35,618 nt of DNA, taken from Labilithrix sp. Its GTDB lineage: Bacteria > Myxococcota_A > Polyangia > Polyangiales > Polyangiaceae. Position 1 is the stretch's first letter, and each line of letters begins with the position of its first letter. Where the stretch lies: positions 1 through 35,618 of the forward strand of contig JAHBWF010000080.1 in assembly GCA_019637105.1 (NCBI GenBank), read 5' to 3'. Both the position numbers and the translations under genes were made by a program. Shown here piece after piece: positions 4,601 to 25,220 of this stretch. The notes beneath the pieces were generated by a model that was not told where the DNA came from, made no database searches, and saw only the letters and a list, made by a program, of their open reading frames with translations.

Positions 4601-6099
4601 ATGCCAAGTGGCGCATCGTCCATGGCAAGATCTGCTCGCAGTCGCCGAAGAACCACCTTGCCTACGAGGACATGCAAACGAGCGAGCTCGGCATCAAGCT
4701 CAGCGCGAACGCATCCAATCGGCCCCTCGGCATCGACGGCGTGCGCTGGAAGGGCAAGGACGAGACCGGTAAGGAGCTGGTCCGCTGGGTATACCGCTAC
4801 GGTGAGGACTACAGCGCGGGCGGCTACATCCACGCCAAGCCCTTCGACTCGGGCGCGGACGTCTACGAGATCACGATGAACGTGATCAACCGCTTCGAGA
4901 ACCAGTACCCCTGGTCGTACTTCCGCAGGCAGAACAAGGAGTTCGCCTGGTGGTCGCTCCCGTACGGCGTTGCCAACACGACGTTCGCCCGCCTCCGCGG
5001 CTACCACTGGACAACGACGACGAACATCGGTCGGGCAACGTCGCCGAGCGATCTCGAGGACGATGACGGCGAGCGTCCGGACGTCATGGCCGCGGCCGAG
5101 ATGTTCAACTTCCTCCAGCGCGTCATCCTGACGCCCGAGCCGGGCACCTACGGCGAGACGGCGTCGCGCACGCCGACGCGTCCGGGCGCCGCGACGATCT
5201 TCGATCTCGACACGTCGACCGGCGACGCGCTCGGCGGCGGGATCGGCACGCTCGGCATCGTCGACGGCCGCTTCGTCCAGGTCGACTTCGACAACGGGCT
5301 CGGCGGCAGCTGGGACTACTTCCACTACCCGATCCACACGGGCTTCGACGACGAGAAGGTCCTCGCGCTCCGCGAGCTCGTCGACTCCCGCCCGACGCTC
5401 TCGACCGTCTCGCGCGAGAACGCCCTCGACGGCCGTGACCCGTACATCAGCTTCCGTACGGACACCCCGCACGCGCTCGACCGCCTCCTCGGCGGCCTCC
5501 TCGCGGAGGACTGGGAGACGATCGCCCCCTCGATGAACGCCGACGGGGAGTCGCACTCGGTGTTCAGCCTCCTCGCCAGGAACCCCGCGGAGCTCACGCG
5601 CCCGGCCGACAGCAAGGGGATCCTCTTCCCGAACATCGGTTACGCCAACGAGCTCGGCGCCGGCATCTACACGCTCCTCTTCTCGCGCTTCAGCACCGAC
5701 ATGGTGCTCGCGCAGAAGCTGCGCGTCCGCCTCGACGGCGACAACGTCCCCGTCATCCCCGACGACCGCAAGGCGGCGTTCGTGGACCCGATCACCGGGC
5801 ACCGTTACCTCGCCACCCGCTACGGCACCGAGGTCATCGGCGGCCGCGCGGTGGACAAGGGCATCGCCTCGCGCATGCTCGATCGCGCGAACGACCTCCT
5901 CGCCGACGCGTACTCGGGCGTCAGCGCGCCGGACGCGTACGGTGAGCGCACGGTCACGCTCGGCGGCGACGGCCTCCCGGCCGTGAAGAACGCGGCCGCG
6001 GAGAAGAACCTCCGCCGCTACATCGGCCTCCTCGACGCGATGCGCCAGATTGGCAACCTCCTCGGCGGCGGTCCGATCGGCAGCGGCGCCGGAGACTGA
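1681..6099 (+). CDS. Large lipoprotein zinc metalloprotease (metzincin-like)
   Basis: A 1472-residue exported protein. The N-terminus has a basic start, a hydrophobic stretch and a lipobox-like SSAGC, which suggests lipid anchoring at about Cys25. The zinc-binding signature HEIGHAIGMRH spans residues 798-808 (zinc ligands His798, His802 and His808; catalytic Glu799), followed by NF. A Met-turn-like segment NTSTMEYQ with Met878 lies about 70 residues later, as in metzincins. Long regions without recognised domains flank the catalytic centre. The C-terminus is an unremarkable Gly-rich tail. Predicted role: cell-surface or periplasmic proteolysis of unknown substrates. It resembles the very large secreted zinc-dependent metalloproteases with an HExxHxxGxRHNF motif, but the exact family needs a profile search. 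It is transcribed alone, with a strong hairpin after the stop. Confidence 0.85.
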   Translation: MRSKWLTRGAFAALVMGVLGSSAGCAEERDPINRVQAGAVPKAFFLGDDLEDFRDDPEFRTKSFNIDSAANTDNYSGTIGGASAVERVRWEVTEGFLFARRSYQESPNSDNRGLPRKEVAPGKWEFPTKPTGTIIAAYPIVSHFDIRRGYNPGTGEELNTVEENISDRPWYQREYMRVDWGRNVAQSTSGDTSWVFGAGATANAIEYSPTNEFDPEDRPHFEMSEGYFDITNKYTITPEIVPSWGVPECVIVGFFNGSTSFDCTPTEVKMRHSFVKLTGQEDFEPFEESKAPRDIVGNWGNAGNSFLREYGAPPITAWDPQYGYTDANTKTFYAIHNIWEKSHQDVACKTNVDEDRDGTADECTADRTKYGGHSGSQCDVHIGKCTIPVRDRTVKPIAFWLNADAPQDLTDEVSEDGKTVLREGAYEELTSTWNQLFSVAVATRREIECRRTRDGSRADCRAEFFEGTGPDTKQMVKFGGWGVDTPIAQPVDKGLPVVTTCHNPVREYDLPLCGKPGEVIRLGDIRKNYAIYWPYASRAPYGGVASIGGDPLTGEMLGVTATTMMRSASYAAAQQRDIIAIALGDLRMEDLISGAQVGRYVNRVQTGAASDAMWKAKSRQELAAAVQNIDHAAIQAALGESPASTASMTKAERQLKNALKAHWSSPQGPLMAAAEQRFQALLAQIDHLPEMHEVSNKSLKRLVSQSQDRSTAVYEAISTMAANDPSRIQDLFSKYEAYLGNKGVCFHDSINTSAAGSIYLPSLAPYFKKLYGALDPIERGDRIYKDLLRESTKGIQFHEIGHAIGMRHNFASSWDALNYPPQYWQLRTNEGESMEACTEANRNNCLGPRYLDPLTDDEAGRGSEPRPGIEYFANTSTMEYQIERGGETVGAGTYDLHTMKTLYGRALETFDLSQLDYSQQTFFALKSLSQGIPSELVLDPNKGYGVHYTRLATLAKVFNPKRDCRPATDEEKEHAKWRIVHGKICSQSPKNHLAYEDMQTSELGIKLSANASNRPLGIDGVRWKGKDETGKELVRWVYRYGEDYSAGGYIHAKPFDSGADVYEITMNVINRFENQYPWSYFRRQNKEFAWWSLPYGVANTTFARLRGYHWTTTTNIGRATSPSDLEDDDGERPDVMAAAEMFNFLQRVILTPEPGTYGETASRTPTRPGAATIFDLDTSTGDALGGGIGTLGIVDGRFVQVDFDNGLGGSWDYFHYPIHTGFDDEKVLALRELVDSRPTLSTVSRENALDGRDPYISFRTDTPHALDRLLGGLLAEDWETIAPSMNADGESHSVFSLLARNPAELTRPADSKGILFPNIGYANELGAGIYTLLFSRFSTDMVLAQKLRVRLDGDNVPVIPDDRKAAFVDPITGHRYLATRYGTEVIGGRAVDKGIASRMLDRANDLLADAYSGVSAPDAYGERTVTLGGDGLPAVKNAAAEKNLRRYIGLLDAMRQIGNLLGGGPIGSGAGD

Positions 6100-6125
6100 T
6101 CGCTCGCTGAAGCAGCCGTAACCCC

Positions 6126-6168
6126 CGACGACCCGCGGCGTCCACGAGACCCGCGGGTCGTCGTGTTT
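6126..6168 (+). terminator. Terminator after the metalloprotease
   Basis: A perfect 13-bp stem, CGACGACCCGCGG (6126-6138) pairing with CCGCGGGTCGTCG (6151-6163), encloses a 12-base loop. It is followed by TGTTT and begins 26 bases after the metalloprotease stop. The T-tract is short, but stem strength and position fit an intrinsic terminator. Confidence 0.75.
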
Positions 6169-6407
6169 CCATCGCCTCGCGTTCGTCCCCTCCTGCCGGG
6201 GTCACTTCGCGGTTCGTCCCGGTTCCACGGGGGCGCGCGCTCCCCGGCGCCCGAGGGCTCTCGACGTACGCACGACGGGAGACGTCGTACGGCTCGAGTT
6301 GCTCGACGTCACCCTTCCCGTTCGCGGAGCGGCTACCTCGCGGGGCGGCTACGTCGACGGGCTCGGGGCCATCGTGCCCCCTGAGCGGGGCGGAGCCGAG
6401 GCTGCGC
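6164..6407. other. Convergent intergenic region upstream of pyk 3' end
   Basis: Non-coding spacer between the metalloprotease terminator and the end of pyruvate kinase. A second hairpin, GCTCGGGGC (6361-6369) pairing with GCCCC..GAGC (6376-6386, 2-base bulge), lies about 20 bases past the pyk stop. It could terminate leftward transcription, though it has no T-tract. Nothing else was recognised. Confidence 0.4.
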
Positions 6408-7817
6408 TCAGCCGATGACGTGGACGCGGATCGAGTTCGTGCTGCCGCTCACTCCGAGCGGGGCGCCGAAGACGATGACGACGCGCTCGCCCGGCGAGGC
6501 GAGGCCGTTGGCCATGAGATCGCCGGTGACCCAGTCGACGAGGGCGTCGGTGTCGGTCAGCTTCGGCAGCTCGCGCGGGATGACGCCCCAGAGGAGGGCC
6601 ATCCGGCGGCGGGTCTGCGGGTTCGGCGAGAAGGCGATGATCGGCACGGGCGGCCGCGCGAGGCTCACGTTCGTCGCGCTCGAGCCGCTCTCGGTGAAGG
6701 CGACCAGGTACTTGGCGCCGATCTCGCGGGCGGTGTTCACCGCGCCGCGGGCGATCGCCTCGGCGACGCTGGTCGCGCGCGTGGCGTAGGGGAGGGCCTC
6801 GAAGAACGGGCTCTTCTCGGCCTCCTGCGCGATCGCGCTCATCATGCCGGCGGCGAGGTTCGGGTGATCGCCGGTCGCGGTCTCTCCGGAGAGCATGAGC
6901 GCGTCGGCCCCGGAGAACACGGCGTTGGCGACGTCGCTCGCCTCGGCGCGCGTCGGCCGCGTGCTGGTCGTCATCGACTGGAGCATCTCCGTGGCGACGA
7001 TGACGGGCCGCCGGACGCGGCGGGCGACGAGGAGGATCTGGCGCTGGATGACCGGCACGCGCTCCGGCGGGAACTCGACGCCGAGATCGCCGCGCGCGAC
7101 CATGACGCCGTCGGAGGCGGCGACCACGCTCTCGAGGTTCTCGACGGCGTCGGGCGTCTCGACCTTCGCGATGATCGGGGTAGGCTTGCCCCACTCCTGG
7201 CAGATCTCGCGGACGAGGCGGAGATCGTCGGCGCGCCGGACGAACGAGAGCGCGACGTAGTCGACCCCCTGCGACAGGCCGAAGGAGAGGTCCGTCTTGT
7301 CCTTCTCCGTGAGCGGGCTGATCCGCATCGTGCGCGTCGGCAGGTGGACGCCGACCTTGCTGCGCATGCCGCCGCCCTGGGTGACCTTGACCGTGACCTT
7401 GCCCTTCGCGGTGGAGAGCACCTGGAGCACGATGCGGCCGTCGTCGAACATGATGCGGTCGCCGGCGTGGACGTCATCGCCCAAACCCTCGTACCGGATG
7501 TAGATCTTCGACTCGTCGCCGACGCCGTCGCCCTCGAGGAGGGTGACCTCGGCGCCGGCCTTCAGGTCGAACGGGGCGGGGAACGTGCCGGTCCGGATCT
7601 TCGGGCCGCAGAGGTCCTGCAGCGCGGCGACCGGCTTGTTCTTGGCCGCGCTCGCCTCGCGCAGGCGGGCGAGGCGGGCGCCGTGCTCCTCGTGCGTCCC
7701 GTGCGAGAAGTTGAAGCGCGCGACGTCCATCCCGGCGTCGATCAGCGACTTCAGACCCTCGACGGAGTCACAGGCGGGGCCCAGCGTGCAGACGAGCTTC
7801 GCGCGACGAACGGCCAT
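6408..7817 (-). CDS. pyk: Pyruvate kinase
   Basis: Converts phosphoenolpyruvate and ADP to pyruvate and ATP, the last step of glycolysis, in the cytoplasm. The start is set at the ATG giving MAVRRAKLVCTLGPA, because the family begins with this K-hVxTxGPA strand; the open frame further upstream is low-complexity Arg/Thr sequence. This gives 469 residues, the usual bacterial length. Visible motifs are ARFNFSHG near the N-terminus, the catalytic IIAKVET block with Lys218, MVARGDLGVE and, further on, the conserved ATEMLQSM. The C-terminal regulatory domain ends in a short strand (RVHVIG). The gene is divergent from lysA, with 71 bp between the start codons. Identification is secure. Confidence 0.97.
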   Translation of the reverse strand: MAVRRAKLVCTLGPACDSVEGLKSLIDAGMDVARFNFSHGTHEEHGARLARLREASAAKNKPVAALQDLCGPKIRTGTFPAPFDLKAGAEVTLLEGDGVGDESKIYIRYEGLGDDVHAGDRIMFDDGRIVLQVLSTAKGKVTVKVTQGGGMRSKVGVHLPTRTMRISPLTEKDKTDLSFGLSQGVDYVALSFVRRADDLRLVREICQEWGKPTPIIAKVETPDAVENLESVVAASDGVMVARGDLGVEFPPERVPVIQRQILLVARRVRRPVIVATEMLQSMTTSTRPTRAEASDVANAVFSGADALMLSGETATGDHPNLAAGMMSAIAQEAEKSPFFEALPYATRATSVAEAIARGAVNTAREIGAKYLVAFTESGSSATNVSLARPPVPIIAFSPNPQTRRRMALLWGVIPRELPKLTDTDALVDWVTGDLMANGLASPGERVVIVFGAPLGVSGSTNSIRVHVIG

Positions 7818-9405: not shown

Positions 9406-11505
9406 CTACTCGCCGGTCTTGAGCTTCGGCATCCGCGTGGACGACGAGCGCCGGCGCTCGCCGGACGTGTTCGGCGGCGGCATCGAGCGCGCGCGGACCA
9501 CCTGCCCTTCGACCGTGACCTCGACGCCGACGGTCCGGCAGCGGCGCGCGAGCCGATCGAGATCGACCTGCGACGACACGAGCAGGCCGCCTTGCGGTGA
9601 GGGCTCGAGGAAGAGCTCCGCGGTCGAGCGGCGCGTCCGCAGCAGCTCGCGTACGTTGGCGTCGTCCACCCACAAGAAGCCGATCGAGGGGACGAAGCTC
9701 CCGCGGCCCACGACGACGCTCGCCTGCGCCAGCGTGCGAGAGAGCGTCTCCGGCAGCGGCGCGATCGCCTCGATGCGCTGGCGGAGCGAGTCGGCTTCGT
9801 AGCCGGCGGAGAGCGCCCGCGCGAGGGTCTGCGGCGCGACGACGAGGTCGAGCGACTCCGCCACCCGCCCCACGTCGACGAAGCCGTAGATCCCGAGGAC
9901 CGAGCTGACCTTCGCGGTCGGCCCGAGGCGGAGAACGTGGGTGTCGAGGAACTTCGACGCGTCGCCGTCTTCGGCGGGCGTCTTGTCGGCGACGAGCGCG
10001 CGGCCGCGCGGCGTCAGCCGGAGCGCGACCTGCGGGGCGCCGTCGGCGTCCTCGCTGTCGTCCTCGCCGAGGTCGAGGATGCCGAGGGCGGGGAGGCTCT
10101 CGAGGACGATCCGCCGCGCGACGTCCATCGGCTCGGGCACCTCGACCGAGACGCGCTCGGCCCAGCGGCGGAGCAGCCGGTCGACGCCCGGGACGCGGTG
10201 GTCGGTCGAGAGGTAGCCCTCGAGGCTCGTCCACGGGATCCAGCGGCTCTCGCCGAGGTCGCGCAGCGCCTCGAGCACGAGCTCGCGCACGACGCTGCTC
10301 GCGCTGGAGTCGCGCTGCTCGGCGGGCAGGCGCAGCGTCTCCGGCTCGCCGCGCGCCTCGTCCCACGCGCCGCCGCGCCGCCACGCGCTGAACAGGAGCT
10401 TGGCGAGGTCGCGGAGGTGGAGCGCGCCCGGCGGCGCGCTGGCGCTGAGCGCCGAGGCGTCCCACAGACCCACCGCGCGCGACAGCGCGATGAGGAGCGC
10501 GACGTGGTACGGGTCGCGCCCGAAGCGCGTGCCCAGCTTGGTGACGAGCGACTTCGGCGTCCCGATCCCGGTGCGGACCTCGTTGCCCGGCTCGCGCGCC
10601 GCGAGCGCGAGCGCCATCGCGAACGGCGCCGGGTCTTGCGAGAAGCGCGCGCGGCGCGGCGCGTGATCGCCCTCGCTGACGAAGCTCTTCACCTGCTGGC
10701 GTCGCGCTTCGCGCTCGGCGTTGCGCGTCGCGCCGATGATCTGGCCGACCTCGGTCGGCACGACGTGACGGTTCGGGTGAACGGGGATGAGCAAGCCCCG
10801 CCGCTCGAGCGAGAAGCCGACGCCGCGGCGCGACGGCGTGGCGCCGGACGCGGTGCGGAGGCGGAGCGGCTCGCGCTCGAGCTCGAGGAGCTCCTCGGTG
10901 TCGACCTCGCCGCCGAGCTCCTCGACGCCCTCCAGCACGCGCCGCTCGGTCGCCGAGAGCTTCTCGATCTCCTCGGCGAGCTTCTCGGGATCGCCGAGCG
11001 TCTCCCAGCCGGTCTCGAGCGAGAGCGCGATGGGCGGCGTCGCGGGGCGCCCGAGGTAGTGGCCGGCGATCGCGCTCACGGTCTCGAACGGCGCCTGCGC
11101 GAGCAGCGCGCGGATGCCGCGCGGGTCTTCGCCCTCCCACGAGCGGAGCTGGACGAGGTACGCCGCGGGGAGCACGAGCTCGACGCGGTTCTTCCCCTCG
11201 GTGCGCGCGAACACGATGCCGCGCTCGGCGAGCGGCTGCAGCGCGGGCGGCACGCTCGGGACGACGAGGACGCCGCGCGCCTCTGCGACGCGATGGAGCA
11301 GCTCGACGCTCGGCGCCGGGAGCCTCGCGGGATCACGGAGCTCAGGCAGCGCGACGAGCGCGCGCGCGATCTGCGCCGGAGGATCGAGCCGCTTCGCGGG
11401 GTCGATCCGGACGCCCAGGCGCGACACCAGAGACTCGAGCTCCGACTTCGGGAGCGCCTTCAGGATGTCCACCAAGCGGAGCGGCATGCGCAATTTAGCC
11501 CCCAC
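9406..11505 (-). CDS. Helicase-associated (XPB/Ssl2 N-terminal-like) domain protein
   Basis: A 699-residue cytoplasmic protein without Walker A or DEAD-box motifs, so not itself a helicase. The C-terminal third resembles the helicase-associated domain found in XPB-type helicases and in stand-alone bacterial proteins: a leading beta strand, then an ARALSAGYEADSLRQRIE-type helix pair, then LPETLSRTL. The N-terminus (LRLVDILKALPKSELESLVSRLG) looks like a small helical domain similar to the SAP/Rho-N type. The function of these stand-alone proteins is unclear, perhaps a DNA-binding or sporulation-related role. The start shown is GTG at 11505 with GAGGA just upstream. An ATG at 11487 (MPLRLVDILKAL) is equally credible. 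The C-terminal tail is basic and Ser/Arg-rich. Domain assignment is moderate confidence. Confidence 0.65.
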   Translation of the reverse strand: MGAKLRMPLRLVDILKALPKSELESLVSRLGVRIDPAKRLDPPAQIARALVALPELRDPARLPAPSVELLHRVAEARGVLVVPSVPPALQPLAERGIVFARTEGKNRVELVLPAAYLVQLRSWEGEDPRGIRALLAQAPFETVSAIAGHYLGRPATPPIALSLETGWETLGDPEKLAEEIEKLSATERRVLEGVEELGGEVDTEELLELEREPLRLRTASGATPSRRGVGFSLERRGLLIPVHPNRHVVPTEVGQIIGATRNAEREARRQQVKSFVSEGDHAPRRARFSQDPAPFAMALALAAREPGNEVRTGIGTPKSLVTKLGTRFGRDPYHVALLIALSRAVGLWDASALSASAPPGALHLRDLAKLLFSAWRRGGAWDEARGEPETLRLPAEQRDSSASSVVRELVLEALRDLGESRWIPWTSLEGYLSTDHRVPGVDRLLRRWAERVSVEVPEPMDVARRIVLESLPALGILDLGEDDSEDADGAPQVALRLTPRGRALVADKTPAEDGDASKFLDTHVLRLGPTAKVSSVLGIYGFVDVGRVAESLDLVVAPQTLARALSAGYEADSLRQRIEAIAPLPETLSRTLAQASVVVGRGSFVPSIGFLWVDDANVRELLRTRRSTAELFLEPSPQGGLLVSSQVDLDRLARRCRTVGVEVTVEGQVVRARSMPPPNTSGERRRSSSTRMPKLKTGE

Positions 11506-13282: not shown

Positions 13283-14607
13283 TCCTACGCGACGCCGTGC
13301 ACGGCCTCATCTCGTTCGAGTCGGAGGAGGAGCGGGTCGTCCCGCAGCTCATGGATACGCCGGAGGTCCAGCGGCTCCGGCGGATCCGGCAGCTCGGCGT
13401 GGCGTCGTACGCGTTCCCGGGCGCGGAGCACACGCGCTTCGCGCACGCGATCGGGGCGGCGCACGTGATGAAGCTCCTCTTGGCGCGCCTCCGGCAGATC
13501 CACGGTGAGCTGCCGTTCTGGCAGCAGGTCACGAGCGAGCGCGCGCAGGAGGCGCTCGCCGCGGCGTTCCTCCACGACGTCGGGCACGGTCCGCTCTCGC
13601 ACCTCTTCGAGGACGCGATCGCCGGCTCCTCGCACCACGAGGAGTGGACCGAGCGCATCGTCCTCGATCCGTCGACCGGCGTGAACAAGGTGCTCGCGAA
13701 CGTCGACCCGAGCTTGCCGGAGCGCGTCGCGGCGCTCGTGCGCGGCGAGAACGCGCTGCCCTACCTGGCGCGCGCGGTCAGCGGGACGCTCGACGTCGAC
13801 CGCTGCGACTACCTCCTCCGCGACGCGCACTCGACCGGCGTTCGCTACGGCGTCTTCGACCTCGACTGGCTCTTCCGGAGCCTCCGCTTCGCGCCGGCCG
13901 AGAAGGGCAAGGCCCCGGGCCTCGCGATCGACGGCGCGAAGGGGCTGCCGGCGATCGAGGCGTTCATCCTCGGGCGCTTGTTCATGTTCCAGCAGGTGTA
14001 CCTGCACAAGGCGACGCGCGCCGCCGAGTGGATGATCCGGACGGTGCTCGCGCACGCGAGCGCGGTCGTCGCGGACGGCACGCGCCTCGCGGGGACGCCT
14101 CGGGCGATCGAGCTCGCCGCGCACGGCCAGGCGCCGTCGCTGTCCGACTACCTCGAGCTCGACGACGCCGTGCTGACCGTCGCGATGCGCGCGTGGGAGG
14201 ACGCGAAGGACCGATCGCTCGCGGACATCGCGCGGCGCGTGCGGATGCGCGAGCTGTTCAAGACGTACGAGCTGTTCGGCGAGCAGGCGCTGCCCGAGGG
14301 CAGGCAGCGCGCCTTCGAGACGGCCCAGGACATCGCGCGGTCGCGCGGGTTCGATCCCGCGCTGTACGTCGGGCTCGACGTCGCCTCCGACACGCCGTTC
14401 GGCGCCGAGCCGGATCCGCTCGTCGTGGTCTTCGCCAAGGGCCCGGCGCGCCCGCTCAGCGACGTCTCGTTCCTCCTCGCGCGGCTCGCCGGGCAGGTGA
14501 TGTCGCGGGTTCGTCTGATCGTCGCCCCCGAGCTGCGCGACGAGATCGCGCAGGCGCTCTCCGTGTCCGCCGAGTCCACCCCCCCGCCCGAAGGCGTCGC
14601 CGGATGA
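13279..14607 (+). CDS. HD-domain phosphohydrolase (SAMHD1/YwfO-like)
   Basis: A 442-residue cytoplasmic HD-superfamily protein. The N-terminus reads like the SAMHD1/COG1078 group (DAVHGLI, then QRLRRIRQLG and the first metal ligand His51 in EHTRFAHAIG). The HD pair is His99-Asp100 in FLHDVGHGPLSH, and the final ligand is Asp174 in DVDRCDYLLRD. All H...HD...D residues are present, so it should be active. Family members hydrolyse dNTPs or GTP; the exact substrate cannot be read from sequence. The ATG at 13279 overlaps the methyltransferase stop and has GGAGGA 8 bases upstream, so the start is well supported. Pairing with a methyltransferase could matter for nucleotide-pool or phage-related functions, but that is speculation. 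Confidence 0.92.
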   Translation: MILRDAVHGLISFESEEERVVPQLMDTPEVQRLRRIRQLGVASYAFPGAEHTRFAHAIGAAHVMKLLLARLRQIHGELPFWQQVTSERAQEALAAAFLHDVGHGPLSHLFEDAIAGSSHHEEWTERIVLDPSTGVNKVLANVDPSLPERVAALVRGENALPYLARAVSGTLDVDRCDYLLRDAHSTGVRYGVFDLDWLFRSLRFAPAEKGKAPGLAIDGAKGLPAIEAFILGRLFMFQQVYLHKATRAAEWMIRTVLAHASAVVADGTRLAGTPRAIELAAHGQAPSLSDYLELDDAVLTVAMRAWEDAKDRSLADIARRVRMRELFKTYELFGEQALPEGRQRAFETAQDIARSRGFDPALYVGLDVASDTPFGAEPDPLVVVFAKGPARPLSDVSFLLARLAGQVMSRVRLIVAPELRDEIAQALSVSAESTPPPEGVAG

Positions 14608-15272
14608 CGGCGTGGCCGAGGCTCCCGCTCGCCGCGGCGCTCTCTGGTGTGCTCGCGGCGTCCGCCGTCGCGAGCGCCGAGGAGCGGCCCGGCCGCGGGC
14701 GGGACGCTTCGCACGGGCGCTTCGACGGAGACCTCGGGGTCGCGGGCGCCGTCGGGATGACGGTCGGTCCCCGCGGGCCGCGCGCGGGAGGGGATCTCCG
14801 GTTCCGCTACCTCTCCACGGCGGGCCTCTTCGCGACGTACGAGGACGGGCCGGTCGTGGGCTCGAAGGCGGAGCCGCGGCGCGCGCTCGCGCTCGGCGTC
14901 GAGCTGCGGCCGCTGTTCCTCGCGCGCTGGGCGACGGGGCGTCACCTCGGGGCGCCGCGCCTCGATCTCTTCGTCGACTCGCTCGCGCTCGAGCTCGGCG
15001 CCGTCTTCGTCGAGCCCGCCGGCGCGCGCTTCGGGGCGCGCCCGGGGCTCCAGGCGGGGCTCGGTCTGGAGCTGCCGTTCTTCGCGAGCGCGAGCGGGCC
15101 GTTCGCCGCGCTCCACGGCGGCGTGCGCTGGAGCGACGCGGCGCTCTCGGGCGGGCCGCTCGAGGGGCCGAGCGATCGCGCGTTCTACCTGACCGTCGCG
15201 CTCGGGTGGCAGCAGCTCTTCGGCGGCCACGTCGTCGACCTCGGGGATCGCAAGAAGACGGCTCGTCGATGA
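14604..15272 (+). CDS. Exported outer-membrane barrel-like protein
   Basis: 222 residues with a signal peptide (basic start, LPLAAALSGVLAASA, likely cleavage near AVASA-EE). The mature part has alternating hydrophobic strands, many Gly/aromatic pairs and a penultimate strand AFYLTVALGWQQLF. This suggests a small outer-membrane beta-barrel, although the true C-terminus (HVVDLGDRKKTARR) lacks the terminal aromatic expected of classic porins. No family is recognised. It overlaps the HD gene (ATGA) and the glycerate kinase gene (ATGA), so it is translated with them although its compartment differs. Why an envelope protein is embedded in this operon is unexplained. Confidence 0.75.
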   Translation: MTAWPRLPLAAALSGVLAASAVASAEERPGRGRDASHGRFDGDLGVAGAVGMTVGPRGPRAGGDLRFRYLSTAGLFATYEDGPVVGSKAEPRRALALGVELRPLFLARWATGRHLGAPRLDLFVDSLALELGAVFVEPAGARFGARPGLQAGLGLELPFFASASGPFAALHGGVRWSDAALSGGPLEGPSDRAFYLTVALGWQQLFGGHVVDLGDRKKTARR

Positions 15273-16558
15273 GCCGTCGCGCCGTCGAGGACGCGGTCCG
15301 CCGCGCGCTCGCGCGGCTCGCCCCGAGCGCGCGGGTCGCGGGCGCGCTGCCCGATCGCCCGCCGCGCGCGGGCGCGCCTCGCCGGTCGGGCGCGCCGCGC
15401 GCCGTCTCCGTCGTCGCGATCGGGAAGGCCGCGCCGTCGATGGCGCGCGGGGCGATCGAGCGCTGGGGCGACGCGATCGCGGACGTCCTCGTCGTCACGA
15501 CCGACGGCACGGACGTGGCGTCGGTCGCGCGCGATCCGCGCGTCGAGATCCTCGTCGCGGCGCACCCGCTGCCCGATCGCCGAAGCGCGCGCGCCGCCGA
15601 GCGCTGCCTCGCGCGGGCGCGCTCGTGCGCCGACCGGGATCGCCTCCTGCTCGTCCTCGTCTCGGGCGGCGCGTCGTCGCTCGTCTGCGCGCCGAGCGAC
15701 GGCGTCTCCTTGCGCGACAAACGCGCGGTGACGCGCGCGATGATCGCGAGCGGCGCGTCGATCCAGGAGATCAACGTGGTGCGCAAGCACCTGTCGCGCA
15801 TCAAGGGCGGCGGCCTCGCGCGCGCGGCGTTCCCGGCGAGGGTGGTGACGCTCGCGTCGAGCGACGTCATCGACGGCGCGATCGCCGACGTCGGCTCCGG
15901 CCCGAGCGTGGCCGACGCGAGCTCGGTCGCGCGCGCGCGCCGCCTCCTCGCGCGCTACGCGCCGCGCTACGCCGCCCTGCCGCTCGCCGCGACCGGACGC
16001 GCGCCCAACGCGGCGATCGGCCGGATCGTGGCGTCGCCCGAGGAGCTCGCGCGCGCCGTGGCCCGCGAGCTGCGCGCGCCGCGGAGCGAGGGCCGCGCGC
16101 CGCGGGGCGAGATCGATTCGGGAGGGGCTCGCGCGTTCCGCGTGCGCGTGCTCGAGCCCTCGCAGGGCTCGGTCGATCGACTCGCGCGCGAGTACGTCGA
16201 GGCGGCCCGGCACCTTCGCGCGGGGACGGCGATCGTGCGCGCGGCCGAGCCCTCGCTCGCTGTGCCCGACGGCGCCGGGCGAGGGGGCCGCTCGACCCAC
16301 CTCGCGGCGCTCGTCGGCCTCGAGCTGCCGCGCGGCGCGACGTTCCTCGCCGCGGCGACCGACGGCGTCGACGGCGCGAGCGGGACCGGGGGCGCCGTCG
16401 TCGACGCCACGTTCGTCCGGCGCGCGGGGGAGGCCGCCGTCCGTCGCGCGCTCGCGCGCTACGACGCGGGAGCGCTCCACCTCGCCGCGAAGACGGCGCT
16501 GCCGCTCCGCCCGAGCGGGCACAACCTCGCGGACATCCATGTCCTCGCGATGACGTGA
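15269..16558 (+). CDS. Glycerate 2-kinase, type 2 (DUF4147/MOFRL)
   Basis: ATP-dependent phosphorylation of D-glycerate to 2-phosphoglycerate, feeding lower glycolysis; pyruvate kinase is encoded 8 kb away. Family hallmarks are the phosphate-binding VVAIGKAAPSMARGA, the LLVLVSGGASSLVCAP loop, INVVRKHLSRIKGGGLA and, in the C-terminal MOFRL domain, GRGGRSTHLAAL and AATDGVDGASGTGGAVVD, ending with HNLADIHVL. At 429 residues it is normal length. The ATG overlaps the preceding stop (ATGA). It is the last gene of the four-gene operon. It belongs to the GckA/TtuD group, but I do not assign a symbol because the pathway context is missing. Confidence 0.93.
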   Translation: MSRRAVEDAVRRALARLAPSARVAGALPDRPPRAGAPRRSGAPRAVSVVAIGKAAPSMARGAIERWGDAIADVLVVTTDGTDVASVARDPRVEILVAAHPLPDRRSARAAERCLARARSCADRDRLLLVLVSGGASSLVCAPSDGVSLRDKRAVTRAMIASGASIQEINVVRKHLSRIKGGGLARAAFPARVVTLASSDVIDGAIADVGSGPSVADASSVARARRLLARYAPRYAALPLAATGRAPNAAIGRIVASPEELARAVARELRAPRSEGRAPRGEIDSGGARAFRVRVLEPSQGSVDRLAREYVEAARHLRAGTAIVRAAEPSLAVPDGAGRGGRSTHLAALVGLELPRGATFLAAATDGVDGASGTGGAVVDATFVRRAGEAAVRRALARYDAGALHLAAKTALPLRPSGHNLADIHVLAMT

Positions 16559-16825: not shown

Positions 16826-17185
16826 ATGAAGATCCCTTCTCATATCCTCCAGTTGCTCGTGGTCTCCGTCCCGATCGTCGCCGCGTGCGGCGATGGCGGC
16901 GACGGCGAGCTCGCGCCGGCCACGACCGATCAGAGCGTCCTCGCCGAGCCCTCGGCGGATCACGTCGAGCCGCTCGATCGCGCGTCGGGCGCGCCCGGCG
17001 TCGCGACCGCGTCGAGCCGCGCCGAGCCGCCCCAGGACGACCCCGGTGTGCCGCCGGCGGACGACGCGGCGCGGGGCGCGCCGCGCGACCCGCCGGCCGC
17101 GCCGTCGGGGACGCCGGGGCGGGCGGGCGCGGACGCCGGAGCGCCGGCGACGCCGGAGCCGTGCCCGGCGTGCGGCCTCGGGTGA
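16826..17185 (+). CDS. Small lipoprotein with C-terminal CPACGLG; candidate MNIO substrate
   Basis: 119 residues. A type II signal peptide (hydrophobic ILQLLVVSVPIV and lipobox VAAC) predicts lipidation at Cys21. Residues 22-109 are Ala/Pro/Asp/Gly-rich and probably disordered, like a tether. The last ten residues are PEPCPACGLG, with only two further cysteines (Cys113, Cys116) in a CxxC four residues from the end. GAGG lies 5 bases before the ATG. The stop is 21 bases before the MNIO gene, so the two are probably co-transcribed. A cysteine pair at the very end of a tether next to a Cys-modifying oxidase family suggests it is the enzyme's substrate, a RiPP-like precursor exposed at the envelope; this is inference. 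Without the neighbour it would be called a hypothetical lipoprotein. Confidence 0.82.
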   Translation: MKIPSHILQLLVVSVPIVAACGDGGDGELAPATTDQSVLAEPSADHVEPLDRASGAPGVATASSRAEPPQDDPGVPPADDAARGAPRDPPAAPSGTPGRAGADAGAPATPEPCPACGLG

Positions 17186-17206
17186 CCCAATCGTCGCCGC
17201 CGTCCC

Positions 17207-18436
17207 GTGTCGAAGCTTCTGGCCGTGATGACGCCGTGGGTCGGGCTGTCGCTGATGACCGAAGACGACTTTCGCGTCGCCGCGTCGCCGCTCTTCGCCG
17301 GCGGCGAGGTGGACGTGCTCGAATGGTCGTTCGACGCGGGGCGGCGGCCCGTCCCCGCGTGGGCGGAGGCGCTCCTCGACCACTACGCCGGGGAGGGGAG
17401 GCTCTTCGGTCACGGTGTGCACTACTCGCCGTTCTCCGCGCGCTGGGAGCCTCGCCAGCAGAGCTGGCTCGAGGCGCTCGGCCGCGAGCTGTCGCGCCGG
17501 CGCTACGCGCGCGTCTCGGAGCACTACGGCTTCATGACCGCCGCGCCGTACGTCCGCGGCGCGCCGCTGCCGGTCCCGCGCGACCGCGCGTCGTTGCAGG
17601 TCGGGCGTGAGCGGCTCGACCGCATGCGCGCCGTGCTGTCGACCGGGGGGACCTGTCCGCTCGGCCTCGAGAACCTCGCGCTCGCGTGGAGCCGCGACGA
17701 GGCGCTGGCGCACGGCGCGTTCCTCGACGACGTCCTCACGCACGACGACGACTTCATCGTCCTCGACGTCCACAACCTGTACTGCCAGACGGAGAACTTC
17801 GGGCTGTCTCCGGACGAGCTCCTCGCCACCTTCCCGGCGGCGCGCGTCGGCGAGCTGCACGTGTCGGGAGGGAGCGTCCTCCCCGCCTGGCCCGGCGGGC
17901 GCGACGAGGTCCGCTGCGATACCCACGACCACGCCGTCCCGGCGTGTGTCTTCGACCTCCTCGAGCGCGCGCTCGCCCGTTTCCCCAACGTCCGCGCCGT
18001 CGTCTTCGAGCGGCTCGGCGGGACGATCCGGACCGTCGAGGACGCCGAGGCGCTGCGGAGCGACTTCCGGCGCACGAGGGAGCTGGCCGCCCGGGCCCGG
18101 GGCGTCGCGGACGCGGGCGCCGCACCGTCTCTCCCCGACGCTCGCCGCGCGTCGGCGCCGGAGCGCGGCGGGGTCGTCGCGCTCGCGGCCCTGCCGTCCG
18201 GCGCGGCGTCGTCGGCGCGCGGAGACGACGACGCGCTCGCGGAGTTCCAGTCCGCGCTCCTCGCGCTGTTCGAGCGCGAGAGCGACGAATTCGTGATCCG
18301 TGCGCACCTCGAGGTCGCGCCCGAATTTGCGCCGTACCGCGCCGCGGTCCGCGCGTTCGACGGACGCGCGCTCGGGGTCGCCGCGCGGGTCGTGAAGAAA
18401 TGGACGCGCCGCGCGCCAGCGACGCATGATCCCTAG
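17207..18436 (+). CDS. MNIO (DUF692) family multinuclear non-heme iron oxidase with C-terminal extension
   Basis: A TIM-barrel oxidase of the MbnB/TglH/ChrH/bufferin-maturase family, whose members bind two or three irons and oxidatively rearrange cysteine or other residues in ribosomally made substrates. The family ligand motifs appear in order: HGVHYSPF (His69, His72), SEHYGF (Glu105, His106), LENLA (Glu155, Asn156), DVHNLYCQTENF (Asp187, His189, Asn190), GELHVSGG (His218), DTHDHAVP (Asp238, His240) and VFERL (Glu268). The core ends near residue 290. A low-complexity linker and a roughly 60-residue helical basic segment (about 345-405) follow and match nothing I recognise. No separate partner protein (MbnC/TglI/DUF2063-like) is beside it. 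Starts are GTG 17207, GTG 17225 or ATG 17228. The lipoprotein upstream is the likely substrate. Confidence 0.9.
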   Translation: MSKLLAVMTPWVGLSLMTEDDFRVAASPLFAGGEVDVLEWSFDAGRRPVPAWAEALLDHYAGEGRLFGHGVHYSPFSARWEPRQQSWLEALGRELSRRRYARVSEHYGFMTAAPYVRGAPLPVPRDRASLQVGRERLDRMRAVLSTGGTCPLGLENLALAWSRDEALAHGAFLDDVLTHDDDFIVLDVHNLYCQTENFGLSPDELLATFPAARVGELHVSGGSVLPAWPGGRDEVRCDTHDHAVPACVFDLLERALARFPNVRAVVFERLGGTIRTVEDAEALRSDFRRTRELAARARGVADAGAAPSLPDARRASAPERGGVVALAALPSGAASSARGDDDALAEFQSALLALFERESDEFVIRAHLEVAPEFAPYRAAVRAFDGRALGVAARVVKKWTRRAPATHDP

Positions 18437-18486: not shown

Positions 18487-18520
18487 GGCGTCGCCGGCGT
18501 CCCTACGGGCCGGCGTCGCC
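18487..18520. terminator. Hairpin between converging MNIO and membrane-protein genes
   Basis: A 12-bp stem with one T:T mismatch (18487-18498 with 18509-18520) and a 10-base loop. It begins 50 bases after the MNIO stop and overlaps the stop codon of the opposing gene (18503-18505). Position suits a shared terminator, but no T-tract is present. Confidence 0.4.
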
Positions 18521-19549
18521 CGCGCCGGCGTCCGAGGCGGCGGCGGCCAGCGGCTTGATGGCCGCCCAGACGTCCTGCGCGAGCGCGCAGTTGTTCACCT
18601 GCCGCTTCATCGCCGCCAGCACGTACGGATCGCGCAAGGTGCGCTCGCCGGCGAAGCGGAACTCGGCCTCGGACTCACGACGGAGACGGACCATCTCCTT
18701 GCCTCGCTTCAGGTCCACGAGGTGGACGCGGGCGGGGTGGGGGACCTGCTGGAGCTCACGCCAGGTCACCTTGCCGGCGCTCCGCCCGGCGTCGCTCGTC
18801 AGGGCGGCCGCCTCCGGCACGTCCTCGTCGAGCACCAGGAGGAAGAACTGCGCCTTCTTGATGATGTCGATCGCGAGCGGGATCTCCTCGTCCTTCGCCT
18901 TGTCGTACTGCTGCACGAAGACGCGCAGGTTGATCTCGTCCTTGGCGTCCTTCACCTCCGTGGCCCACTCGTCCGTGAGGATGCGCGTCGCGTAGTAGGC
19001 GAGCCGCAGGTTCCACGGCTGGTCGTTCCAGCCCGAGCCGGCGTCGGCCTCTCCGCGCGCCGTCGCCGCGGCCGTCGGGTTGTTCTCGCGCAGGAGGCAA
19101 CCGACGAAGGAGTCGCGCGCGGAGTCGTCGGCGCTCTTGCGGATCAGCTCCGCGTCGCGCGCCTCCTCCACGCGCATCCGCAGGTAGATGCCGGGGAGGC
19201 TGCGGAAGTCCCACGCCGCCGTCTCGGGATCGACGAAGTCTCCCTTGAACTCGCGGGCGGCCTCGAGCGTCGTCGCCTCGAGCTTGTCACGGAGCGGGAA
19301 CCACTCCGCGCCGACGGTGGTGACGGCGGCGCGCTGCTTCGAGAGGAGCTCTTCCTTCTGGTTCGCGAGCGAGCGATCGCTGAAGAGCCACGCGGCGACG
19401 ACGACGGAGAGCGTGGCGCTGACGACCACGAGCCACGCCTTGCCCGTGATGCGGCCGTGCTTGGACGAGGCGCGCTCGATGCGCGCGTCGCGGACGGCCT
19501 TGAGCCCGATGTCACGAGGCTTGTCGCTGGAGCTTTCGTGTTCGCTCAA
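18503..19549 (-). CDS. Single-pass membrane protein of unknown function, downstream of ExbB/D module
   Basis: 348 residues from a TTG start chosen because GGAG lies 8 bases upstream; the longer open frame overlaps the ExbD gene and is low-complexity Ser/Arg. A cytoplasmic tail of about 37 residues is followed by one TM segment (38-56, rich in V/A/L), then about 290 periplasmic residues containing mostly charged helices (SLANQKEELLSKQRAAVTT) and a C-terminal Ala/Gly/Asp tail. No known domain was recognised. It lies downstream of ExbB-ExbD-ExbD on the same strand, so it could be an accessory or cargo-linking part of that motor. A strong terminator in between means it may be expressed at a lower level or separately. 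Confidence 0.75.
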   Translation of the reverse strand: MSEHESSSDKPRDIGLKAVRDARIERASSKHGRITGKAWLVVVSATLSVVVAAWLFSDRSLANQKEELLSKQRAAVTTVGAEWFPLRDKLEATTLEAAREFKGDFVDPETAAWDFRSLPGIYLRMRVEEARDAELIRKSADDSARDSFVGCLLRENNPTAAATARGEADAGSGWNDQPWNLRLAYYATRILTDEWATEVKDAKDEINLRVFVQQYDKAKDEEIPLAIDIIKKAQFFLLVLDEDVPEAAALTSDAGRSAGKVTWRELQQVPHPARVHLVDLKRGKEMVRLRRESEAEFRFAGERTLRDPYVLAAMKRQVNNCALAQDVWAAIKPLAAAASDAGAGDAGP

Positions 19550-19589
19550 GACAGGGACTCCGGAGGTGCTGTCGACGCAGGGGCGGTTA

Positions 19590-22627: not shown

Positions 22628-23338
22628 ATGTTCGTGGCTCTTCTGAGCAGCCTGGGTGATGGAGCTCCCGCGGCAGCCGCTGGAGGTGGCTCGAGTGAGA
22701 TCGGGTTCATGGCTGCGTTCAAGGAAAACCCGACCTTCCTCTCGATCAACCTCTTCGTCTGCGCGCTGGTCATCGCGCTGATCGTCGAGCGCGCCGCGTT
22801 TCAGCTCGGAAAATACCGAGTTAATTCGCGCGAGTTCTTCGCCCAGATCAAGAAGCTCGTGACCGCCGGCAACATCGATCGCGCCATCAAGCTCTGCGAC
22901 GCCGGCGACTACCCGACGCTTCACCTCGTGAAGGCGGGGCTGACGCACGCCAACAAGGGACCCGACGAGATCGACGCCGCGATGAGCGAGAAGATCGGCG
23001 AGCTGAAGCCCGCCGTCGAGAAGCGCGTCGGGTCGCTCTGGTCGCTCGCGAACATCGCCACGCTCGTCGGCCTCCTCGGCACCGTCATCGGCCTCATCAA
23101 CACGTTCGCCGCCATCGCCGCGCCGGGCCTCTCCGCGGCGGACCGCCAGCGCCTCCTCGCGAACGGCATCGCGGAAGCGATGTACAACACGGCGCTCGGT
23201 CTCGGCATCGCCGTGCTCTGCATGGTCTCCCACCTCATCTTGCACCAGCGCGCGAAGACGATTCAGCACGATCTCGACGCGACGCAGGAGCGTGTCTTCA
23301 ACCTCCTCACGATCCAGACGCGCCCCGGCGGTTACTGA
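22628..23338 (+). CDS. MotA/TolQ/ExbB proton-channel protein (rightward module)
   Basis: 236 residues. A short Ala/Gly-rich N-terminus precedes TM1 (SINLFVCALVIALIVERAAF), the cytoplasmic helices (KKLVTAGNIDRAIKLCDAGDYP), TM2 with LLGTVIGLINTFAAI including the conserved Thr, and TM3 (NTALGLGIAVLCMVSHLIL). AAGGAG eight to nine bases before the ATG marks the start. It is the first gene of a rightward ExbB-ExbD-ExbD operon, the mirror of the leftward one. Sequence identity between the two ExbB proteins is limited to family motifs, so they are not a recent duplication. Confidence 0.93.
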   Translation: MFVALLSSLGDGAPAAAAGGGSSEIGFMAAFKENPTFLSINLFVCALVIALIVERAAFQLGKYRVNSREFFAQIKKLVTAGNIDRAIKLCDAGDYPTLHLVKAGLTHANKGPDEIDAAMSEKIGELKPAVEKRVGSLWSLANIATLVGLLGTVIGLINTFAAIAAPGLSAADRQRLLANGIAEAMYNTALGLGIAVLCMVSHLILHQRAKTIQHDLDATQERVFNLLTIQTRPGGY

Positions 23339-23387
23339 GCCCTCGGTCTTCTCGACTCGCGAGACAGGAGAGGAGGGAGCGTCGTAG

Positions 23388-23939
23388 ATGGCGACCGAGA
23401 AACTCAGCGCCCAGCAGCGGAGCAAGATCCGTCGGCTCTCGCAGCCGAAGGAGCACGCTCCGGACGAGGCGGGCGGAGAGCTCAACATCGTCCCGTTCCT
23501 CGACATCATCACGAACGTGCTGATGTTCGTGCTCGCGACGATCAGCGTCACGTTCACCGCGACGATCGACACCTACCCGCCCCGCGCGGGGAGCGGCGCG
23601 CGCGCGCCGACGACGCCGACGCTCGGTCTCACGGTGCTCGTGGTCCCCGACGGCTTCAGCGTGAAGGCGCGCGGCGGCAACGTCGCGCCAGGGTGCAGCG
23701 ACACCGGGCCGGGCATCGCCATCCCGAAGAAGGACGGCGACTACGACTACAAGGGGCTCAAGGCGTGCGCCGAGAAGCTGAAGGGCGCGGCCCCCGAGTT
23801 CAAGGACGAGATGGGCGTGACGATCAGCGCGAACCCGCCGATCCCGTACCAGGTCGTCATCAGCGCGATGGACGCGGTCCGCAAGAACGAGACCGGTGAA
23901 GAGATGTTCCCCGAGGTCACCTTCGGAGTCGCGAGGTAG
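23388..23939 (+). CDS. ExbD/TolR-type biopolymer transport protein (rightward module, first)
   Basis: 183 residues. The cytoplasmic tail is basic (QQRSKIRRLSQPKEH), then NIVPFLDIITNVLMFVLATI forms the TM segment with Asp39. The periplasmic domain contains a Cys pair (in APGCSDTG and LKACAEKL) that the other three ExbD proteins in this window lack, so it might form a disulfide. It ends with the ExbD pattern PYQVVISAMDAVRKNETGEE (split at 20) and a final strand. A GGAGGGAG element precedes the ATG. It lies 49 bp after the ExbB stop and is followed by a further ExbD gene. Confidence 0.92.
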   Translation: MATEKLSAQQRSKIRRLSQPKEHAPDEAGGELNIVPFLDIITNVLMFVLATISVTFTATIDTYPPRAGSGARAPTTPTLGLTVLVVPDGFSVKARGGNVAPGCSDTGPGIAIPKKDGDYDYKGLKACAEKLKGAAPEFKDEMGVTISANPPIPYQVVISAMDAVRKNETGEEMFPEVTFGVAR

Positions 23940-23983
23940 CCGATGACGACGTCGCACGGATCGACGCGCCCGCGGAGCGCGCG

Positions 23984-24631
23984 ATGAACCAGCCCCCCGC
24001 GGGAGGACCGCCGCCGGGATCGCCGCCGCCGGGCGCGCCGAAGGGCCCGCCGCCCGCGCAGAAGCCGGCCAGCATGGCGCGCTACAAGCGCGAGCTGCGC
24101 CGCGCGATCGCGAAGAACCACAAGGAGCCGGAGATCGATTTTCTCAACATCACGGCGATGCTCGACATGATGACGATCATCCTCGTCTTCTTGCTCAAGA
24201 GCATGAGCCAGTCGTCGGCGTCGCTCCCGCAGTCGGGCGACCTGACGATGCCGAAGAGCGTCCTCACGACGGAGGCCTCGCAGGAGGGCGTCGCCGTCAT
24301 GATCTCGCGCAGCTCGATCATCGTCGACGACAACATCGTCGCCCAGGTCCCCGCGGACGCGACGCACGGCGTCGAGGGCAAGTACAAGCGCACCGGACCG
24401 ACGGACCTCTACATCGTCCCGCTCGCCAACGCGCTCCAGAGCTGGCGCGAGCGCGATCGTCAGGTCCGCCTCGCGACGGGCAAGGATCCGAGCTCGAGCG
24501 AGGCGATCGTCATCGCCGACGCCAACACGCCCTACCGCCTCCTCACCGAGGTCCTCTTCACGCTGGGCCAGAGCGAGTTCGCCAAGTTCCACCTGATGGT
24601 CCTTCAGGGCGCCTCCGCCTCGCCGAACTGA
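23984..24631 (+). CDS. ExbD/TolR-type protein with proline-rich N-terminus (rightward module, second)
   Basis: 215 residues, the longest of the four ExbD proteins. Residues 1-28 are Pro/Gly-rich (PPAGGPPPGSPPPGAPKGPPP), then a basic helix (RYKRELRRAIAKNHKEPE) leads into LNITAMLDMMTIILVFLLKS, the TM with Asp61. The periplasmic domain starts with LPQSGDLTMPKS and ends with YRLLTEVLFTLGQSEFAKFH (split at 20). The cytoplasmic proline-rich arm could bind another protein or be the site of regulation. It is 44 bp after the previous ExbD stop and is the last gene of the operon. Confidence 0.92.
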   Translation: MNQPPAGGPPPGSPPPGAPKGPPPAQKPASMARYKRELRRAIAKNHKEPEIDFLNITAMLDMMTIILVFLLKSMSQSSASLPQSGDLTMPKSVLTTEASQEGVAVMISRSSIIVDDNIVAQVPADATHGVEGKYKRTGPTDLYIVPLANALQSWRERDRQVRLATGKDPSSSEAIVIADANTPYRLLTEVLFTLGQSEFAKFHLMVLQGASASPN

Positions 24632-24797: not shown

Positions 24798-25220
24798 CTA
24801 CTTCGGCAGGCAGAGGGAGGCGGCGGCGAGGCAGCACTCCGACGCGCTGCACGGGCAGGGCGTGGGGTTCGAGACGAGCATGAGCTTGATGATGTTCAGC
24901 GGATCGTTCGGATCGCAGTCGTCGCCGCCGGTCGGAGGGGGCCCCGCGTCGGGCGCCGGCGGGGTCGCGTCCTTCGTGCCCGCGTCCTTCGGCGCGTCCG
25001 CGTCCTTCCCGGCGTCGGTCGTCGTGTCGTCGTCCTGGCTCGGGTTCGACGCCGCCGGGAGCTTCGCGCTGGCGGGCTCGTCCTCGGGCGACGCCGGGTT
25101 CTGCTCTTGCGTCAGCCCGCTCAGGTCGTCGTCGGTCGGCGCCGTGGCGCAAGCGCCGAGGGCGAAGGTGACGGCCGTGAACGAGAGGAGGAAAACGCGG
25201 CTGAGGGCGGTACGACGCAT
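24798..25220 (-). CDS. Lipoprotein with cysteine-rich C-terminus
   Basis: 140 residues. A type II signal peptide (RVFLLSFTAVTFALGAC) predicts lipidation at Cys24. The middle (25-100) is Asp/Pro/Ala/Thr-rich and disordered, with repeated DAGKDADAPKDAGTKDA-like steps. The C-terminal 40 residues form a small Cys-rich module: Cys102 in DDCDPND, then CPC at 122-124, CC at 129-130 and Cys137 in LCLPK. Six cysteines suggest disulfides or metal binding. Disordered tether plus terminal cysteines recalls the MNIO-linked lipoprotein 7.6 kb away, but sequences differ and no modifying enzyme is adjacent. Function unknown. Confidence 0.8.
   Translation of the reverse strand: MRRTALSRVFLLSFTAVTFALGACATAPTDDDLSGLTQEQNPASPEDEPASAKLPAASNPSQDDDTTTDAGKDADAPKDAGTKDATPPAPDAGPPPTGGDDCDPNDPLNIIKLMLVSNPTPCPCSASECCLAAASLCLPK

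Follow-up and report, generated by a model that had tools for sequence, protein, structure and literature searches.

The window analysed here is a 35,618-nucleotide stretch of a Labilithrix sp. draft genome, in which a short lipoprotein gene lies directly upstream of a gene for an MNIO (DUF692) enzyme. The features of this gene pair are:

16826-17185, + strand: precursor lipoprotein gene, 119 aa, tail CPACGLG
16826-16888, + strand: signal peptide with lipobox VAAC (pattern test)
16889-17161, + strand: variable Ala/Pro/Asp-rich tether, residues 22-112
17162-17182, + strand: C-terminal motif CPACGLG, predicted modification site (Cys113, Cys116); stop codon at 17183-17185
17207-18436, + strand: MNIO (DUF692) of the ChrH/DybH type (PF05114, 97.6 bits; NF050165, 267.8 bits)
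18203-18433, + strand: extra C-terminal domain of the MNIO, about residues 333-409 (tblastn second segments)

The precursor starts with MKIPSHILQ and ends in EPCPACGLG. Its N-terminus, MKIPSHILQLLVVSVPIVAAC, has its cysteine inside the lipobox VAAC (residues 18-21), and Cys21 is the predicted lipidation site by pattern only. Cys113 and Cys116 are the sole cysteines besides Cys21, as the original prediction had read from the sequence. The G+C content by codon position is of the coding type both in the precursor (0.82/0.66/0.92) and in the MNIO (0.78/0.53/0.93), and together with the Pfam match of the enzyme it bears out the predicted pair as real; a spurious ORF is ruled out by this composition and by conservation in relatives. 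The NCBIfam model NF050125 ChrA_rel_RiPP, for chryseobasin-related RiPPs, reaches 22.3 bits on the precursor tail, short of its cut-off of 40. The motif CPxCGxG followed by a stop codon occurs once in the draft genome (8,454,228 bases in 334 contigs, 91.5% complete), at the window precursor, and the reversed control pattern does not occur. Additional substrates acting in trans in the same genome were set aside on this single occurrence, which applies to the exact pattern and not to looser tails.

The enzyme comprises 409 residues from its GTG start, and the gap to the precursor gene is 21 bp, as predicted, for this start. An in-frame ATG at 17228 coincides with a methionine (MxPW) in three relatives described below (L004, L005, and L006); if it is the start, the predicted gap does not hold and is 42 bp. 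The Pfam family PF05114 MbnB_TglH_ChrH far exceeds its cut-off of 25, and the best NCBIfam model is NF050165 MNIO_ChrH. As its score lies under the equivalog cut-off of 600 bits, the sequence identifies the enzyme as ChrH-type but does not establish it as ChrH proper. The other branches score lower, with 77.4 bits for bufferin (BufB; cut-off 310), 59.3 for HvfB, and 35.7 for ApyH; the methanobactin, bufferin, oxazolin, and aminopyruvatide types were rejected for the pair on such lower or absent scores. The same genome harbors a second MNIO (L003, 1234-2232) that scores 274.4 bits with NF050167 BufB (cut-off 310) and 53.4 with ChrH, and a further MNIO match in L002.

The metal-ligand motifs noted earlier are confirmed in an alignment of 30 MNIO rows, two of which (L010 and L048) are one gene. 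The positions H69, H106, E155, N156, D187, H189, H218, H240, and E268 (window numbering) are common to 26 rows including the window; the deviating rows are L003 and L022 at H189, and L019 and L023 at N156. Residues of this type serve as iron ligands in MNIOs. The solved DUF692 protein 8hci can be aligned to the enzyme over residues 138-271 (E 6.7e-7). The C-terminal domain matches no Pfam family; it is fused in the window, L004, and L005, and its homolog is a separate small ORF in L006 (50.5% by tblastn) and L007 (37.7%).

A contig scan yielded four related loci, in two Labilithrix MAGs (L004 and L005), in Myxococcales bacterium 68-20 (L006), and in a Candidatus Omnitrophota MAG (L007); the sequences at this place in G444 and G445, of the window's genus, are the same as L004 and L005. 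In all four, a lipoprotein-like ORF lies immediately 5' of the MNIO or slightly overlaps it. The tails are CPACGLG in L004 and L005, CPYCGMG in L006, and CRACGMG in L007. The Omnitrophota MAG thus has the same kind of lipoprotein and MNIO pair (5795-6879), and L005 contains a second lipoprotein-like ORF 3' of its MNIO (7234-7467) with the tail CHSCGMG. By eye and by ORF ends, the flanks of L004 and L005 resemble those of the window, with a glycerate-kinase type gene upstream and ExbD/ExbB type genes downstream. Those of L006 and L007 are unlike the window's, and the persistence of the pair despite these different flanks defines the unit as lipoprotein plus MNIO.

Conservation is uneven along the precursor. 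The last ten residues (110-119) are identical to the window at 10/10 positions in L004 and L005 and at 8/10 in L006, so that the tail conservation proposed as a check of the original prediction is borne out, and the relatives differ by synonymous codons within the tail. Identity of the signal peptide is 18/21, 14/21, and 12/21 in L004, L005, and L006, respectively, and the lipobox pattern is present in all three. The tether (residues 22-109) falls to 44/87, 29/82, and 11/56 in the same order, which is 35-51% between the window and the two Labilithrix MAGs. Since the signal peptide and tip are conserved while the tether drifts, function probably resides in the modified tip, and the tether appears almost free to vary.

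The flanking ORFs of the window match the Pfam families DUF4147/MOFRL, HD domain, DNA methylase, PLP decarboxylase, ExbD (twice), and MotA_ExbB. Four ORFs on the minus strand have no Pfam match, namely 9409-11505, 18506-19552, 24798-25220, and 13285-15870; the last is probably spurious, and 24798-25220 is a lipoprotein-like ORF with the cysteine-rich end PTPCPCSASECCLAAASLCLPK. None of the flanking ORFs scanned with Pfam (22628-24631 excluded) is a gene of the ChrI, ChrE, or ChrP type, a SusCD-like transport gene, or a DUF2063-type partner.

A search with the window MNIO finds related enzymes in 21 of 377 genomes drawn from the phylum at E <= 1e-15 and in 16 of 184 genomes of the order at E <= 1e-40; in the genus as listed, the enzyme is found in 4 of 13 genomes, the window's own included. 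A query with only the MNIO portion of L045, a relative, yields 26 matches at E <= 1e-45, spread over 25 of the 318 class genomes. These 26 MNIOs were sorted by their adjacent ORFs, drawing on previously extracted loci wherever these covered the same place. Directly upstream of 16 of them is an ORF with a two-cysteine CxxCGxG ending, which answers the proposed check for co-occurrence in Myxococcota; its end falls no more than 61 bases ahead of the point where MNIO homology starts and no more than 24 bases past it. Three more (L008, L009, and L071) are accompanied by a short ORF with an embedded CxxCGLV and, by eye, no signal peptide, five by single-cysteine tails, and two (L044 and L048) have no recognisable tail nearby. 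None of the 13 weaker MNIO loci of the phylum (L017-L029) has a CxxCGxG tail. Beyond the class, L016 has the tail CPACGRG, and L049 has a lipoprotein-like ORF with the tail CPPCGRG about 3 kb before its MNIO. The more distant MNIOs L019 (= L050), L020, L021, L023, L028, and L029 follow ORFs that share a CGMGHVPERxxRFLxxF-like C-terminus and are perhaps another type of substrate or partner.

Eleven of the 16 CxxCGxG tails of the class have a proline after the first cysteine; the other five are CLACGMG, CGPCGMG (twice), CTACGRG, and CLGCGMG. As these sequences and CRACGMG of the Omnitrophota MAG show, natural tails do not always keep the proline of the published CPxCGxG. The N-terminal parts are lipoprotein-like, secreted-looking with Lys-Pro linkers (L034, L035, and L040, by eye), or, in L037, an NHLP leader. 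The L037 ORF (1190-1474) matches the NHLP leader model TIGR03793 at 65.6 bits (cut-off 50.9), ends in CPLCGAG, and lies directly before a ChrH-type MNIO, so that a different leader class is joined to the same tail type.

These patterns bear on the simplest rival reading, an ordinary CxxC lipoprotein whose adjoining MNIO acts on something else. It is highly improbable, given that the tail and not the body is conserved and accompanies the enzyme across genera, that it is kept with differing N-terminal parts (lipoprotein, secreted-looking, or NHLP leader), and that CPxCGxG-stop is found in the genome only at the window precursor. The co-occurrence of pair and tail in relatives instead points to the lipoprotein as the likely substrate of the MNIO and to its C-terminal cysteines as the likely target, in agreement with the original prediction.

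That prediction had also called the system possibly undescribed, which the literature contradicts. A preprint of November 2025 (PMC12636315) already describes the ChrH/DybH subfamily including lipidated precursors, and the ChrH reaction is given in PMC10214503. According to PMC12636315, the subfamily, among which Myxococcota are named, recognises a C-terminal CPxCGxG, and the motif alone suffices for modification, even on GFP. DybH converts it to a macrocycle and a hydantoin with a loss of 4 Da and no partner protein, and mass-spectrometric and NMR evidence backs the product of modification (PMC12636315, PMC10214503). Precursors with a third cysteine are lipoproteins, their products are named DAG-RiPPs, and E. 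coli triacylates DybA; the authors describe what these lipoproteins do biologically as unknown. HymA, with the tail CPGCGLG, is likewise modified by -4 Da (PMC12636315). The exact tail CPACGLG is absent from the main text of PMC12636315, and the survey of MNIOs in PMC12452194 lists the chryseobasin cluster.

The best explanation, held with high confidence, is that the window pair is a minimal two-gene locus for a DAG-RiPP (a lipid-anchored RiPP) of the chryseobasin/DybA type, in which the neighboring iron enzyme very probably rebuilds the last seven residues into a small ring. Its chemistry and lipidation are carried over from published relatives, and the pair is a new member of a described kind of system with a likely chemistry. 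Points against this explanation are that both proteins fall short of the curated cut-offs of the ChrH and ChrA-related models, that the extra enzyme domain has no Pfam family, that CPACGLG is absent from the main text of PMC12636315, and that L044, L048, and the 13 weaker phylum loci show no such tail. In the cytoplasm, the iron enzyme would bind the C-terminal CPACGLG and oxidise Cys116 with O2. The carbonyl of Cys116 would be rearranged into a hydantoin over Gly117/Leu118, and the sulfur of Cys113 would be joined to the former beta-carbon of Cys116 to form a small macrocycle with a free thiol, for a net change of -4 Da. Sec export, lipidation of Cys21, and cleavage by signal peptidase II would then follow, so that a long flexible tether would carry the modified tip on a membrane. 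The residue at +2 after the lipidation cysteine is Gly in the window, L004, and L005 and Ala in L006. In E. coli, Gly or Ala at +2 leads to no retention in the inner membrane, and by that rule the lipoprotein would not be retained there.

Two further rivals concern the product. In the first, the enzyme carries out the same reaction and adds an S-methylation, giving a +10 Da form of the tail, as in ChrH. This outcome, to which we give a smaller though appreciable chance, draws on ChrH itself (+10 Da) and on the myxobacterial ArlAH, which yields a mixture of -4 and +10 Da; against it, the -4 Da product is reported for DybAH, ChsAH, and HymAH of Bacteroidota and for cyanobacterial MelA1 with MelH and MelHc (PMC12636315). 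In the second, the tail is modified to another product, such as a thiooxazole or oxazolone-thioamide, that binds copper, and the lipoprotein serves as a bufferin- or oxazolin-like metal buffer anchored to the membrane. A CxxC is compatible with metal, ∼16% of Buf2 bufferins have lipoprotein signals (PMC12452194), and the window's genome also encodes a BufB-like MNIO; however, the window enzyme is nearest to ChrH and not to BufB, the Pfam-scanned flanking ORFs include no DUF2063-type partner, and modified DybA displays no UV-vis feature of aromatic groups of the thiooxazole or oxazolone-thioamide type (PMC12636315). Copper buffering is therefore very unlikely, and the "possibly metal-binding" group of the original prediction is not supported here; in the published DybA product, a free thiol stands beside the macrocycle and hydantoin (PMC12636315). 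For the role of the lipid-anchored product, the conserved signal peptide and tip and the unconserved tether invite a tentative guess, in which we place low confidence, that an envelope-anchored tip is the binding site for a ligand in the periplasm or outside it.

The class also contains enzymes with an altered architecture. In L042, L043, L045, L046, and L047, the MNIO, the extra domain, and a zinc-dependent alcohol dehydrogenase form a single ORF of 705-737 residues, and these are the same five MNIOs that have single-cysteine tails. The fused ORFs with recorded positions or strand are:

L042, 7639-9852: fused MNIO-dehydrogenase ORF
L045, 8431-10608: fused MNIO-dehydrogenase ORF
L047, 8940-11087: fused MNIO-dehydrogenase ORF
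L043, minus strand: fused MNIO-dehydrogenase ORF

Pfam ADH_N and ADH_zinc_N match L042, L045, and L047, the three scanned. The best non-MNIO match in NCBIfam, for which only L042 was scanned, is the NADPH aldehyde reductase Ahr at 214.6 bits, below its cut-off of 470. The motifs CGTD.H, GHE, and APL.C.G and a glycine-rich nucleotide motif, all presumably catalytically meaningful in the dehydrogenase, are present in all five fusions. All eight upstream precursors end in CGRG and have lost the first cysteine; four lipoprotein-like ORFs lie in a row in L042 (6147-7625), with the tails NCGRG, ACGRG, DCGRG, and PCGRG. A lipobox, by a looser pattern than the window's, is found in seven of the eight precursors, each with exactly one later cysteine; the script finds none in the L046 precursor, where GIGC is read as a lipobox by eye.

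Among the 24 MNIOs with a recognisable tail, the single-cysteine form accompanies 5/5 fused and 0/19 unfused enzymes (one-sided 2.4e-5 if independent). The five fused MNIOs form one group in the MNIO tree, from which row L049 was dropped as too short, with support of 94/86, just under the mark of 95/80; as members of one clade, they are not independent cases for this value. The long branches inside the group argue that the association of fusion and single-cysteine tail is old and kept. It is the first cysteine that supplies the macrocycle's thioether, and its loss in CGRG tails therefore leads to the expectation of a different product. In ChrA, replacing the first cysteine by serine gives a partial product of -36 Da, and replacing the second abolishes activity (PMC10214503). 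We rate as an even call the broader proposal that Myxococcota harbor a radiation of tail-modified, often lipid-anchored proteins that includes the window pair, and that the fusion clade performs a new modification in which the dehydrogenase reduces an oxidised cysteine intermediate to a non-macrocyclic product. The intermediate may be a thioaldehyde or a species of -36 Da as in the ChrA variant, and the stable product would be displayed on a membrane tether. Against this proposal, the dehydrogenase could act in the other direction or on another substrate, and all five fusions come from draft genomes.

The literature search, which covered main texts and few subscription papers, found no report of MNIO-alcohol dehydrogenase fusions; neither PMC12636315 nor PMC12452194 uses the word "dehydrogenase" in its main text, the alcohol dehydrogenase passage in PMC11002830 concerns an unrelated RiPP, and the match in PMC12257519 is the title of a reference. 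A fusion of an MNIO to a nitroreductase is already reported (PMC12452194), so MNIO fusions as such are not new, and the novel lead is the combination of dehydrogenase fusions with single-cysteine tails, which suggests a new version of the chemistry. This clade offers a directly testable change of reaction outcome and could help to order the steps of the ChrH mechanism.

Among known systems, DybA/DybH of Dyadobacter crusticola (PMC12636315) is like the window pair in its lipobox cysteine, its C-terminal CPxCGxG, its adjacent ChrH-type MNIO, and its minimal gene pair with no partner protein seen nearby. The DybA tail is CPACGMG in place of CPACGLG, and the window differs in its hypervariable Ala/Pro/Asp-rich tether, its Myxococcota host, and the absence of SusCD-like genes in the scanned flanks. 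The extra C-terminal domain of the window MNIO, separately encoded in L006 and L007, may correspond to the C-terminal helical bundle, fused or separate, of the DAG-RiPP enzymes. Chryseobasin ChrA/ChrH (PMC10214503) shares CPACGxG and an MNIO, and the window enzyme finds its best curated match in ChrH; in contrast to the chryseobasin operon, the scanned flanks of the window have no genes of the ChrI, ChrE, or ChrP type, and the signal of ChrA is of the signal peptidase I type whereas the window precursor looks like a lipoprotein. The bufferins and oxazolins (BufB, HvfB) are also modified by MNIOs, some with lipoprotein signals, but belong to a different enzyme branch with a different, multi-cysteine precursor in the case of bufferins. 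Archangium ArlA/ArlH (PMC12636315) is a Myxococcota member of the same subfamily; its precursor has an embedded CPACGMMM, the type seen in L008, L009, and L071, whereas the motif of the window precursor stands at the very end. With the window pair, the range of lipid-anchored chryseobasin-type peptides comes to include Labilithrix-type myxobacteria.
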